The notes under the pieces: model-generated | Database searches by the model: none | Told to the model about the DNA's origin: nothing | The model's input: the letters and a program-made list of their open reading frames with translations, nothing else | In this document: one piece after another, positions 18,095-49,808 of the stretch | Layout: every line of letters begins with the position of its first letter | Numbering within the stretch: position 1 is the stretch's first letter | Source of the DNA: a virus | Length of the DNA: 58,634 nucleotides | IMG/VR virus record: IMGVR_UViG_3300021180_000013 | Span: 1 to 58,634 of that record | Direction: 5' to 3' (one strand) | Translations under genes and position numbers: made by a program

Positions 18095-18123
18095 TTGACG
18101 TTTTGTCATAAGTGTGGTATCGT
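18095..18123 (+). promoter_or_regulatory. Early-type promoter with TGAC palindrome, before endonuclease
   Basis: TTGACG (18095-18100), a 17-base spacer and TATCGT (18118-18123) form a sigma70-like promoter. The -35 overlaps the palindrome TGACGTTTTGTCA (18096-18108), whose exact reverse complement is found at 57628-57640 in a leftward promoter. The likely start codon GTG 18130 begins seven bases beyond the -10, so the message may be leaderless. Confidence 0.6.
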
Positions 18124-20183: not shown

Positions 20184-20207
20184 TTTTCAATTAGATAGAA
20201 GTAATTA

Positions 20208-20241
20208 GGACCAAGCCTCAAAACTTGGTCCTTTTCTTTTT
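20208..20241 (+). terminator. Rho-independent terminator after capsid gene
   Basis: GGACCAAG (20208-20215), an eight-base loop and CTTGGTCC (20224-20231) form a perfect 8-bp stem followed by TTTTCTTTTT. It lies 25 bases after the capsid stop and should end capsid transcription, isolating it from downstream genes. Confidence 0.92.
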
Positions 20242-20271: not shown

Positions 20272-20300
20272 TTGACAAAATGACATAAGAATGCGAATAT
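20272..20300 (+). promoter_or_regulatory. Early-type promoter with TGACA motif, before endonuclease
   Basis: TTGACA (20272-20277), 17 bases, GAATAT (20295-20300). The -35 forms part of TGACAAAATGACA, an imperfect version of the TGAC-N5-GTCA palindrome. GGAGGA precedes ATG 20317. Placed directly after the capsid terminator, it would give the endonuclease gene its own early expression. Confidence 0.55.
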
Positions 20301-23395: not shown

Positions 23396-23761
23396 ATGTC
23401 CTCACCCGTAACACCCGTTGTCGATCTGCGTCCTGATCGTTCTCGCACGTACCATAAGCCTCAACCTATCCTCGACCGGGTATTAGTCAGAGTCATCAAA
23501 TCTCATTCTGAGACTGAGGACTTCGTGATCCCAGATAAGTACAGGGAGAAGTCGCGACTGGGCGAAGTGATCGCTGTTGGCGATGGAGTCGTATTAGGCA
23601 ACCAATACCTCCCCATCGAGGAGTTCATCTCCGTCGGTGATCGAGTGAAGTTTGGTGAGTATACTGCTGAAGCCTACGACCACACGGACCCGACGCAGGC
23701 GACGGAGTTCATCGTGCGTATCCAAGACATCCGTACAGTCGAGAGGCTCGTTCGTGAGTAA
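23396..23761 (+). CDS. groES: GroES-like co-chaperonin
   Basis: 121 residues with the Cpn10 plan: PILDRVLVRVIKSHSETEDFVIPDKYREKSRLGEVIAVGDG (roof and mobile-loop region) and VGDRVKFGEYTAEAYD, and then IVRIQDIRTV. It is longer than the bacterial 97 residues by an N-terminal extension (SSPVTPVVDLRPDRSRTYHK). GGAGTCTCA precedes ATG 23396. It overlaps groEL by eight bases, as in cellular groESL. Acts as the lid of the adjacent phage chaperonin. Confidence 0.85.
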   Translation: MSSPVTPVVDLRPDRSRTYHKPQPILDRVLVRVIKSHSETEDFVIPDKYREKSRLGEVIAVGDGVVLGNQYLPIEEFISVGDRVKFGEYTAEAYDHTDPTQATEFIVRIQDIRTVERLVRE

Positions 23762-46250: not shown

Positions 46251-48119
46251 TTAACTGATCCCCATTTTCGTCAAAAGGCTCTTCATTCTCTCGTGGTACG
46301 TCTCGTGATCCTTTACCCATTTACTTGTCAACCTCACACTTGCTTGTCGAGCGTCTTCGTTCGCTAAGAAATAATCTATTCGATCTTGCAACTCGTAAAG
46401 ATCCCCCGGGGTAAATGTGACCATTCCGGGGATCGAGAGCCCTTTACAATATGGATGCACAAGGAATCCGCCTCGTCCGAGTGTCTCTGGGACACGATCG
46501 GACCAGTAAAAATCGGCGCCCCCGAAGCATGAATCTCCCACCACAACCCGGCACGAAGCATACACGTCGTTGAGCGATTGTCCTCGGTAACCTTGGAACA
46601 ATCTGAATCGTTCGCCATACACTTGTCTCAAAAAGTTGAGTAGTTGTCCTCGGAATTTGTATTCTTCATGGTATCCTTCAGCGCCCACGAAGCCCACATC
46701 AATCGCTAACTCTTTTCTCCATTCTCCGACGTAACAATCCCTTCGGACGACAGCAGGAGGGAGCCACGTATGTTTGTCCGAACCAAGCCGTTCGGTAAAT
46801 TTGTCATCGTTCCCCCCATCAGCAGTAAAAATCCGGCGTGTCCTCCAGAAAGGATGGGCACCAATACGGTCTTCCCTTCCGTCAGACTGATTAAGTCCCC
46901 AGTATCGGTCAAGGTGGAAACTAGCGGTTCTTGTTCCATTGGTATCGAGTTCCTTCCAGAGTTCATCAAGTGTTAATTTACCGGGTGTTGTCCAGCCATG
47001 CGTATGTACATAGATCAGCAACGCCACTCCCCAACACCCCTCCAGTATCTCCTCCGTCCTATCCTCATCCTCCTGGAACGGTATCGTCGTGTAGCCCATA
47101 TCCCGGAGCGTCCATAGGAGATCGTTCTCCGTCGAGTGCTCGGGCCGAAAGTTGCCTAGGAGGGCTATACGGGGCTTCCCCGCCCCCTGACCCGCCGCGA
47201 CGACCGATCGTGGCTCCAGGAGCCTGCGAAAGGCCTCCCCAGCGTCCCTATTACCCCTCACGAACCTCGCCCGCGCCTCCATCCCCATCCGCGCAACCTC
47301 ATAATTCGGCTGCTTCACCATCTCCGGGAGCTTGCGTCTGAGGTCGCAGATATCGACCTCGTACAACTCCCCTAGATTGTAAGACTTACCGGAACGAGCG
47401 TTCGCTTCGAACGGGGCGGATAACTCGGACATTGGACCGGCGCCGGTGGTAAGGAGTACAGCTCCTACTCCTTGGCTCTCGTGCAGCGACTGCCCGAACC
47501 CTTCGTAATTACTCGGCGTAGCGTGAAAACGGTGAGAATTCTGAAGATGAATCAACTCCTCATCCGACACTCGCGAGCGAAACTCTACCCCCTCCACGGG
47601 CGTCGTATCCACCATCTTGCTATTCGTTATACAAGTCAGCGGCGGCAGTGACGATTTGTCATAATATCTGTACTCACGGTAGCAGGCCAGCAGCTCGTTC
47701 GTTCCCCTCATCCCGCTATTGCCCCCTAAATGGAGTACTCGATCTTCCCTCTTCACGCTCGCATCGTAATGATCCTCAGCGAAGAATCCGGTGTATTCAA
47801 CGTTGGAAAACAAGACACGCAGCCGTCTCTCCGCGTCCCTAGTCTTAGCCAACACTTTCTCACAATGCCTCTGGATCGGTCTGACATTTTCAGGTTTGAG
47901 CCATTCTGGATTTGCGATATAAAACCAACGCTTCGCGTGCGGGACATGATCCACATTGAACGTCTCGATCGATACACCTAACTCGAACTCCTCCTCACAC
48001 GGCTCATCATACTGCACTAATTCCGCGACATGCCCCTCAGAAACAAGAAAACGCTGAAGTAACTCAGCGTCTTTCTGAAGACCGATGCCGTTAATATTGG
48101 TAAAGAGACCTATCTTCAC
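46251..48119 (-). CDS. Two-domain glycosyltransferase
   Basis: 622 residues that appear to be two enzymes in one chain. Residues 1-310: GT4-like (IGLFTNINGIGLQKDAELLQ, LHLGGNSGMRGTNELLACY, PSNYEGFGQSLHESQGVGAV with the E-x7-E-type donor site). Residues about 315-622: a CgeB-like domain (PRIALLGNFRPEHSTENDLL, IDVGFVGAEGYHEE, NDVYASCRVVVGDSCFGG, RVPETLGRGGFLVH). Overlaps its neighbours. A fused polysaccharide or glycan chain enzyme is inferred. Confidence 0.8.
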   Translation of the reverse strand: MKIGLFTNINGIGLQKDAELLQRFLVSEGHVAELVQYDEPCEEEFELGVSIETFNVDHVPHAKRWFYIANPEWLKPENVRPIQRHCEKVLAKTRDAERRLRVLFSNVEYTGFFAEDHYDASVKREDRVLHLGGNSGMRGTNELLACYREYRYYDKSSLPPLTCITNSKMVDTTPVEGVEFRSRVSDEELIHLQNSHRFHATPSNYEGFGQSLHESQGVGAVLLTTGAGPMSELSAPFEANARSGKSYNLGELYEVDICDLRRKLPEMVKQPNYEVARMGMEARARFVRGNRDAGEAFRRLLEPRSVVAAGQGAGKPRIALLGNFRPEHSTENDLLWTLRDMGYTTIPFQEDEDRTEEILEGCWGVALLIYVHTHGWTTPGKLTLDELWKELDTNGTRTASFHLDRYWGLNQSDGREDRIGAHPFWRTRRIFTADGGNDDKFTERLGSDKHTWLPPAVVRRDCYVGEWRKELAIDVGFVGAEGYHEEYKFRGQLLNFLRQVYGERFRLFQGYRGQSLNDVYASCRVVVGDSCFGGADFYWSDRVPETLGRGGFLVHPYCKGLSIPGMVTFTPGDLYELQDRIDYFLANEDARQASVRLTSKWVKDHETYHERMKSLLTKMGIS

Positions 48120-48319
48120 TTACTGACGCTCACCTGCTCACAAGACTTATACCGGTTGAAATCACACGTCATCATCGAGCCACTGACCCGACACACGATA
48201 TCACTAGTGATACACTCGTGCGGGATGACGACGACCGTAATGGGCTTCTTCGCCGCACAGCCACTAAGCAGTAACGTCCCCGCTACCCACGCGCACAAAC
48301 TCCATCGTCTTAAGATCAA
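48116..48319 (-). CDS. Small lipoprotein
   Basis: 67 residues with a signal peptide and lipobox LLSGC (Cys21), so the mature protein is lipid-anchored outside the inner membrane. The mature part has four more Cys and no proline-rich Rz1-like segment. It overlaps the upstream gene by 56 bases. A superinfection-exclusion or outer-spanin-like role is possible; neither is proven. Confidence 0.7.
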   Translation of the reverse strand: MILRRWSLCAWVAGTLLLSGCAAKKPITVVVIPHECITSDIVCRVSGSMMTCDFNRYKSCEQVSVSK

Positions 48320-48515
48320 GTCGATACTCCTTTTGATCGTACCCTAGTTTCTCCGCGACAGCCCGAATACCAGCGTTAAGTGATTCCACTGCAGCCTTCA
48401 TCTGCTCATTCACCTGCTGCTGCGTCGCTTGGATACGATACGCCTCGACCTCTAGTGTGCGGATCGTGAGTTTATCTTCGGCTGTCAAAAACGCCTGCGT
48501 CTCTTTTTCATCCAT
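48264..48515 (-). CDS. Short coiled-coil protein
   Basis: 83 residues from ATG 48515, overlapping the NusG-like stop by eight bases. Charged helix (DEKETQAFLTAEDKLTIRTL, NEQMKAAVESLNAGIRAVAE) then a short beta-like end. A longer version from GTG 48653 would add an out-of-frame hydrophobic stretch inside the NusG-like gene; it has a possible AGAGG ribosome site, so this start cannot be excluded. Function unknown. Confidence 0.5.
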   Translation of the reverse strand: MDEKETQAFLTAEDKLTIRTLEVEAYRIQATQQQVNEQMKAAVESLNAGIRAVAEKLGYDQKEYRLDLKTMEFVRVGSGDVTA

Positions 48516-49068
48516 TGTAGTAGTATTTTCTCCTATCCTTCGGAATATCCAACTTAAGTAGCGCCCTAACCGGGATCCTAATTCGAAGATTGCGAGTAGT
48601 AAGGCTGCAGCGAACGTCGGCAATATCAGCATCAATACTAATAACGTTTCCACAGAGCATCCTCCTCTCCCCCAGCAATATCCTCACAAAACTCCCTTTC
48701 TTCACCCCCTCCGACCAACCCCCACTCACCTGTTCACTTTTTGCGATCATCTGTTCTCCGAATGAGGACGGGATTTCCAGTGGTGTCGACTCATTCGCCA
48801 TTGTCACGCCCTGCACCCCCATTACCGTGCGGATATCCTTGAGCACGCGGAGATCACGGCATTGAATAAGGATGTTGGGATAGAACAGTACGACTCCGCC
48901 GAGATCCCTCGTCTCTACCGGGAACAGAATACGAAACGCTTCGTCGCGTTTGCGCACCCAGCGGACGAGGTGTAAGCAAATCTCCTCCAACCGCGCGTCC
49001 GACGCTAACTCCAACTGCGCCCAGGGTAGCTTCTCGAAACCTTTCGTTTTACCTTGGGTTAGTAGCAT
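48508..49068 (-). CDS. NusG-like transcription elongation factor
   Basis: 186 residues. The central part fits the NusG N-terminal domain: LFYPNILIQCRDLRVLKDIR, then TVMGVQGVTMANESTPLEIP, equivalent to the FPGYV...W..V..PGV..F.....P.PL pattern. The C-terminal SFVRILLGERRMLCGNVISI and IRIPVRALLKL resembles a KOW domain. The protein would bind RNA polymerase and alter pausing or termination. Coupled (TAATG) to the sigma-like gene upstream. Assignment is by eye only. Confidence 0.6.
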   Translation of the reverse strand: MLLTQGKTKGFEKLPWAQLELASDARLEEICLHLVRWVRKRDEAFRILFPVETRDLGGVVLFYPNILIQCRDLRVLKDIRTVMGVQGVTMANESTPLEIPSSFGEQMIAKSEQVSGGWSEGVKKGSFVRILLGERRMLCGNVISIDADIADVRCSLTTRNLRIRIPVRALLKLDIPKDRRKYYYNG

Positions 49069-49604
49069 TATCGGGCCGGACCATCAGGCGTCATAGGACT
49101 AAACAACACCTCCACATCCTCAGCACCAATACTAACAACAAACTCACCTAGCACGCTGGGCTCAGTTACCCTCAACTCCCCCCGTTGCTCACTCGACGTC
49201 TTGAACGACAACACACTCTCCGGCAACGCTCCCGTAGCACTCACACTCGCGATCCCATCCACACCTAACTCCAACGCCTGCCATACCTGTTTCTGTCTCA
49301 TCCCTAACGTCCGCCCGATCTGCTCCTGCGTCCGCCCGAGAAGAAAATATTGATAAAAAATATCCTGTATCACATGCGGGAGATACGCTACTAACTCAAG
49401 GAACCTCTCGGGCTGCTCCTCAGCCATCGCCCGCGCCATCTTACTCTTCTTCCTATTCGGCGACGCTTGCCAATCATCAGCTGAATGAGCCTCAGCGGAG
49501 ACAAGCTGAGACCCCGACAACGCCCCGTCGGGATCATCCTTGAACAACCTCTCCGCGAGATGATCGCTCGACGTCTCGTACGCTGATTTTTTCTCGTCGT
49601 TCAT
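49068..49604 (-). CDS. Sigma region-4-like DNA-binding protein
   Basis: 178 residues. Residues about 68-118 (FLELVAYLPHVIQDIFYQYF, LLGRTQEQIGRTLGMRQKQV, WQALELGVDGI) form a helix-turn-helix of the sigma70 region 4 type (L..LP...R.I......G.TQ.EIG..LG......). No region 2 is apparent, so it may be an appended anti- or co-sigma factor or an atypical sigma factor. It is a candidate for reading the late-type motif. Overlaps the small membrane gene start. Confidence 0.6.
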   Translation of the reverse strand: MNDEKKSAYETSSDHLAERLFKDDPDGALSGSQLVSAEAHSADDWQASPNRKKSKMARAMAEEQPERFLELVAYLPHVIQDIFYQYFLLGRTQEQIGRTLGMRQKQVWQALELGVDGIASVSATGALPESVLSFKTSSEQRGELRVTEPSVLGEFVVSIGAEDVEVLFSPMTPDGPAR

Positions 49605-49771
49605 TTAAACAGGAGTATACCTGCTGCCATTCCGCAGAAGAACGGCGCGAAATCGTAAAGCCAGAATGCTTTACCGTCCGGCGTCTCCCATTTGATCCAA
49701 GGATTGATAACAAATGCTTGGAAGCCATGAAGCACAAAAACGATACCAATGAACTCAATCCAGTGTTTCAT
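49601..49771 (-). CDS. Small membrane protein at an early promoter
   Basis: 56 residues from ATG 49771, two hydrophobic segments (WIEFIGIVFVLHGFQAFVIN, YDFAPFFCGMAAGILLF). The early-type promoter (49780-49808) ends only eight bases upstream; GAGGGAG lies in that gap. Stop overlaps the next ATG (ATGA). Small early phage membrane proteins often affect the host, but no specific role can be assigned. Confidence 0.65.
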   Translation of the reverse strand: MKHWIEFIGIVFVLHGFQAFVINPWIKWETPDGKAFWLYDFAPFFCGMAAGILLFK

Positions 49772-49779
49772 ACTCCCTC

Positions 49780-49808
49780 ATATTACCAATATTATGACAA
49801 AGTGTCAA
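49780..49808 (-). promoter_or_regulatory. Early-type promoter with perfect TGACA palindrome
   Basis: On the minus strand, TTGACA, a 17-base spacer and TAATAT make a near-consensus sigma70 promoter. The -35 overlaps TGACAAAGTGTCA (49795-49807), a perfect palindrome with three-base centre. It drives the small membrane protein, the sigma-like and NusG-like genes and perhaps the sugar island. Confidence 0.72.

Follow-up and report, generated by a model that had tools for sequence, protein, structure and literature searches.

A translationally coupled gene pair for a sigma-region-4-type helix-turn-helix protein and a divergent NusG-like protein: a possible phage-made antitermination module

The window, i.e. 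the whole stretch of DNA that was analysed, is a virus record of 58,634 bases, which is classed as linear and in which no terminal repeat of 11–200 bases was found. Its plus strand carries a large gene block that extends from the terminase to about 41 kb. The opposite block, which occupies the minus strand between about 57 and 41 kb, encodes a DNA polymerase A, an exonuclease, a protein with a match to uracil-glycosylase and further products. Situated within this block, on the strand of the DNA polymerase, are two overlapping genes for a helix-turn-helix (HTH) protein and a NusG-like protein. The locus is composed of the following elements:

49780..49808, minus strand: promoter-like site TTGACA-17-TAATAT with a TG before the -10 element (extended -10), from sequence
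49601..49771, minus strand: membrane-type ORF of 56 aa, the stop codon of which overlaps the HTH start (ATGA), from the ORF list and sequence
49068..49604, minus strand: HTH protein of sigma-region-4 type, 178 aa, from the ORF, TIGR02937 and a family HMM
49066..49070, minus strand: TAATG junction, in which the HTH stop TAA and the NusG start ATG share one base, from sequence
48508..49068, minus strand: NusG-like protein, 186 aa, with an NGN domain at about residues 1–115 and a KOW domain at about 120–175, from tblastn, hhalign, PDB search and Foldseek
48264..48653, minus strand: ORF 3' of nusG (operon context) with two possible starts, a GTG within nusG (129 aa) or an ATG that overlaps the nusG stop codon (about 82 aa), from sequence

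The coupling of the two genes through TAATG, pointed out in an earlier note made from the sequence, was thus found again at the junction. The promoter-like site in front of the cluster belongs to the best-scoring minus-strand sites of the 40–58 kb region (10/12, TG), a quality that chance alone should produce in a window of this length; a promoter upstream of the HTH cluster is suggested because of the position of the site in the gap before the cluster. Promoter-like sites at 18095 (+), 20272 (+) and 49808 (-) have the sequence TTGAC-nnnn-TG(T/A)CATAA in common, perhaps a common operator. Neither the 56-aa ORF at 49601..49771 nor the ORF at 48264..48653 gave a significant match in the family search. 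Inspection by eye indicates a membrane helix and a coiled coil in the latter, which together with an overlapping small lipobox (LLSGC) ORF at 48116–48319 might form a spanin pair on the minus strand.

When all six frames of the window are searched, the HTH protein is the sole match to Pfam Sigma70_r4 (E 0.014, below cut-off). The NCBIfam model TIGR02937 (sigma70-ECF) detects it over residues 43–111 with an E-value of 3.9e-5, likewise below the curated cut-off, confirming the sigma region 4 type of HTH proposed before. This match is confined to model positions 86–154 of 165, corresponding to the linker/region 4 part only, and neither Pfam nor NCBIfam gave a match to sigma region 2 in the protein. 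With region 4 present and region 2 undetected, the sequence comparisons do not lead us to class the protein as a sigma factor. A structure model of poor quality (pLDDT 45) found its best PDB matches in ECF sigma region 4 (Foldseek, E 0.09), a PDB search with the HTH profile gave no meaningful match, and comparison of the protein with Q models gave none either (hhalign 0.8%).

The second protein is almost invisible to standard family models. At an E-value of 10, searching the window in all six frames yielded nothing for Pfam NusG or KOW, and the protein itself showed a KOW fragment only, with a weak score (E 0.011). This is read as the result of divergence and not of absent homology, a view that the comparisons of sequence and model favour. 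Aligned by hhalign to NusG sequences of bacteria, the family reached 98% (E 1.8e-13) over both NGN and KOW, compared with less than 1% for unrelated control sets; the window sequence alone gave 33% over 128 columns. In a PDB profile search, T. maritima NusG, Aquifex NusG and Spt5 rank first (NusG 1e-4). Foldseek places NusG, Spt5 and RfaH first for a single-sequence model of poor quality (pLDDT 48). Since tblastn, profile-profile alignment, PDB profile search and fold comparison agree, the description as a NusG-like protein with a KOW end stands, and homology to NusG is considered secure on these sequence and model comparisons.

The order NGN-linker-KOW and the end-to-end profile match are found in bacterial NusG, RfaH, LoaP and UpxY as well. 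However, in contrast to these proteins the window NusG lies below Pfam detection, is phage-borne and coupled to an HTH gene, and deviates in two motifs. The PGY motif of the NGN domain is not conserved. The SIFGR segment of E. coli NusG corresponds to SLTTR in the window protein and to IKTK or LKTK in the relatives, an alignment-dependent assignment; owing to this replacement the aromatic position 165, which we take to be the key residue of the segment, would be lost in the NusG-like proteins. With the same dependence on the alignment, the KOW residues by which housekeeping NusG contacts Rho and S10 are not kept.

Among 50,697 records searched by tblastn with the NusG-like protein, one phage was found: Tunturi_5, a 309-kb isolate phage of an acidobacterium (Acidobacteriota; Tunturiibacter), whose gp25 is annotated as ‘transcription antiterminator’. 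The identity of 31% covers practically the whole window protein (residues 1–184, E 4e-16), the difference being a C-terminal extension of about 150 aa in gp25. A DNA pattern for the KOW motif common with gp25 retrieved 13 viral stretches, all of which encode homologues. A family profile search yielded 23 loci, including most of those retrieved before; about 25 contigs with the NusG-like gene were found. The window protein is about equidistant (30–33%) from eight aligned relatives. Exact peptide patterns revealed no close relatives of the window proteins in viral contigs, and no genome contigs with a NusG alignment, the latter search resting on one peptide pattern and showing little. In the giant-phage nusG genes of contigs L013 and L142, intein-like insertions interrupt the C-terminal extension at an identical site (IVYC/C), and several contigs have homing endonuclease genes adjoining nusG or the HTH gene.

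An initial phmmer search of giant phages missed the HTH homologues close to NusG, which were recovered through Sigma70_r4 matches. They form a family of about 245 aa with two HTH regions, which is present in 9 of 25 records searched; a pattern scan returned 73 stretches, 70 with a clear member; about 70 contigs with the family were found. Tunturi_5 is again included: gp346 (PP885688.1 301753–302487), annotated as ‘exonuclease’, is a full two-HTH member. In three members examined, sub-threshold resemblances were seen, of the first HTH to Phage_antitermQ (19–22 bits, cut-off 26) and of the second to sigma region 4. When the family was compared with Phage_antitermQ, seven of eight aligned members matched (best E 1e-5), the profile link being local and weak (16% over 30 columns). 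The window protein scores 29.9 bits against the family HMM (E 1e-8 in a search of 547 window ORFs, where the next best reaches 0.35) and is recovered by direct phmmer at E 5.6e-6 among 4054 ORFs. A smaller family model gives 18.6 bits, compared with at most 7.4 in 2000 shuffles. The N-terminal, first-HTH and C-terminal LGEF blocks occur in family order, and the second HTH, which gp346 possesses, is missing. Judged from these sequence matches, the window HTH protein is probably a distant, shortened and divergent member of the two-HTH giant-phage family. Both parts of the pair thus appear to be shared with other phages, as unnamed families of one giant soil-phage lineage. Since these families are almost invisible to Pfam, they are mis- or unannotated in giant-phage genomes.

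The earlier note regarded the pairing as uncommon. This holds for direct adjacency, which is rare, and not for co-occurrence. When records of more than 200 kb with either gene were searched for both, nine of eleven hold both, one (G024) showing the HTH gene only and another (G006) nusG only, absences that mean little since the IMG/VR records, classed as linear, may be fragments. In most relatives the two genes lie at least 30 kb apart; in Tunturi_5, gp25 and gp346 are separated by about 32 kb across the record start. A physical complex is therefore not implied. The same distance, together with the lack of a significant Q match in the window HTH protein, speaks for two independent neighbours, i.e. 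an ordinary HTH repressor or activator beside a NusG acting alone as general elongation factor or as decoy of host NusG. We regard this reading as doubtful. The pair is more than a chance neighbourhood because both families co-occur in one giant-phage lineage, and in the window the genes overlap. In the lineage of L045 and L142 both genes are kept near each other in the same order, the HTH gene preceding nusG by 1.2–1.6 kb on the same strand, in L142 with a homing endonuclease between them.

Independent HTH–NusG pairs are found in rhizobial phages and likewise argue against unrelated neighbours. In Rhizobium phage vB_RleM_PPF1 and Sinorhizobium phage phi3LM21 an HTH gene lies directly upstream of a phage nusG and overlaps it; the phi3LM21 pair precedes the terminase genes. 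Their HTH proteins, however, are of the HTH_36 type, measure 415–446 aa and include one annotated as putative replication initiator, and their NusG is canonical by Pfam.

A short motif recurs ahead of the late genes of the window:

8765, 13943, 16678, 22064, 26976, 29120, 34391 and 38510, plus strand: late motif CTTTYCASAYANNNAYAG, from sequence

Six sites with at most one mismatch, all on the plus strand in the late half, compare with 0.08 expected, a significance that is optimistic as the pattern was derived from those very sites. The motif often directly follows the preceding stop codon and ends 0–53 nt before start codons. The 19-bp motif reported before therefore exists, its length being about 18 bp. 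It forms one compact block, and its flanks show no separate -35-like block. Extension by PWM iteration drifted into coding sequence and was discarded. The motif may represent a late promoter; its length and position recall promoters of single-subunit polymerases, and no such polymerase was found. In the relatives carrying HTH and NusG the motif is absent, and it was accordingly rejected as a shared recognition site. The motif is real, but no link with the HTH protein or the pair emerged, and action of the HTH protein through it, as envisaged by the earlier note, was not borne out.

The motif bears on two further readings. The HTH protein might serve as a sigma-4-like specificity factor, moving host polymerase to late promoters marked by the 18-bp motif, with NusG keeping the polymerase going. 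The sigma-4-type HTH is in line with this, as are the restriction of the motif to the plus strand close to late gene starts and the position of the pair on the opposite, early-type strand with the DNA polymerase. Given that region 2 is undetectable and that the motif is compact, has no -35-like block and is absent from relatives with the pair, this is considered unlikely. Alternatively, the NusG paralogue could be of the RfaH/LoaP kind, recruited by a DNA or RNA element of its own (perhaps the 18-bp motif), while the HTH protein sets timing. Specialised NusG paralogues often adjoin their targets, RfaH is recruited by the ops element (PMC7819879), and the late motif is located in leaders. Its absence from relatives with the same NusG, and its occurrence as a separate motif before several genes, which resembles promoters and not one loading site per operon, make this explanation very improbable.

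The preferred interpretation, which on sequence comparison and analogy we give an even chance of being correct, is that the HTH and NusG-like genes provide the phage with an antitermination (processivity) module of its own that acts on host RNA polymerase. No beta-subunit or T7-type match to a phage RNA polymerase was found in the window, and host RNA polymerase is therefore the likely target. A phage-encoded polymerase as target of NusG was set aside on this ground, bearing in mind that divergent polymerases can escape and that part of the genome may be absent from the record. The module is favoured over a promoter-redirecting sigma factor because neither region 2 nor a phage polymerase was detected and because of the sub-threshold resemblance of the HTH family to Q. 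Of the take-over of host transcription suggested earlier, the general role remains plausible, whereas redirection to late promoters is disfavoured by the lack of a detectable region 2 and the Phage_antitermQ-like relatives. The changed Rho/S10 segment of KOW and parallels with RfaH and phage-21 Q point in the same direction: RfaH, an antiterminator, likewise does not possess the Rho-binding residues (PMC7819879), and phage-21 Q combines a sigma-region-4-like fold with DNA binding at the late promoter (PMC6606751). As a small phage protein whose sequence suggests a sigma-region-4-like HTH and with relatives that match Phage_antitermQ below threshold, the window protein is comparable to phage-21 Q. 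It differs in having no Q match itself, no identified binding site at a late promoter, and a NusG as companion.

For such a module we infer a DNA target, a polymerase contact, a partnership of the proteins, loss of Rho binding and antitermination. Through its NGN domain, the NusG-like protein would attach to the beta' clamp helices of elongating host polymerase and displace host NusG. Lacking the usual KOW residues for contact with Rho and S10, the bound protein would not recruit Rho, and long phage operons would consequently be read through. The HTH protein would act as sequence-specific partner on DNA near phage promoters and/or at the polymerase flap, the seat of sigma region 4, thereby marking which polymerases receive the NusG paralogue. 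More specifically, the pair could form a two-protein antitermination factor, in which the sigma-4/Q-type protein picks the promoter and the NusG paralogue stays on the polymerase; we propose this tentatively. That the same factor is a core system of the soil giant-phage lineage, compacted into a coupled pair here, is possible to a similarly limited degree.

Translational coupling behind a common promoter-like site and the rhizobial HTH–nusG parallel speak for the module. Against it stand the window HTH protein without Q match, its missing second HTH, the unconserved PGY motif and the number of terminator-like sites in the late region, which is at chance level and so gives no sign that antitermination is needed. 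No loading site for the module was found, nor a recruitment element common with the relatives.

The best-known phage antiterminator complexes, e.g. that of lambda N, borrow host Nus factors. If a phage brings a Q-like DNA binder together with its own NusG, this would show elongation control captured as a unit. No experimental work on phage-encoded NusG was found in the open-access literature; the pair is testable because an isolate with both genes exists in Tunturi_5.

Some giant phages, namely L032 (G009) and L034 (G013), also encode apparent full ECF-type sigma factors. In the late block of the window a strong bidirectional terminator-like hairpin is located at 20207–20232 (+), followed by a good sigma-70-like site at 20272–20300 (+) before an endonuclease VII-like gene, and a GroEL-type chaperonin is encoded by the phage at 23652–25331 (+).
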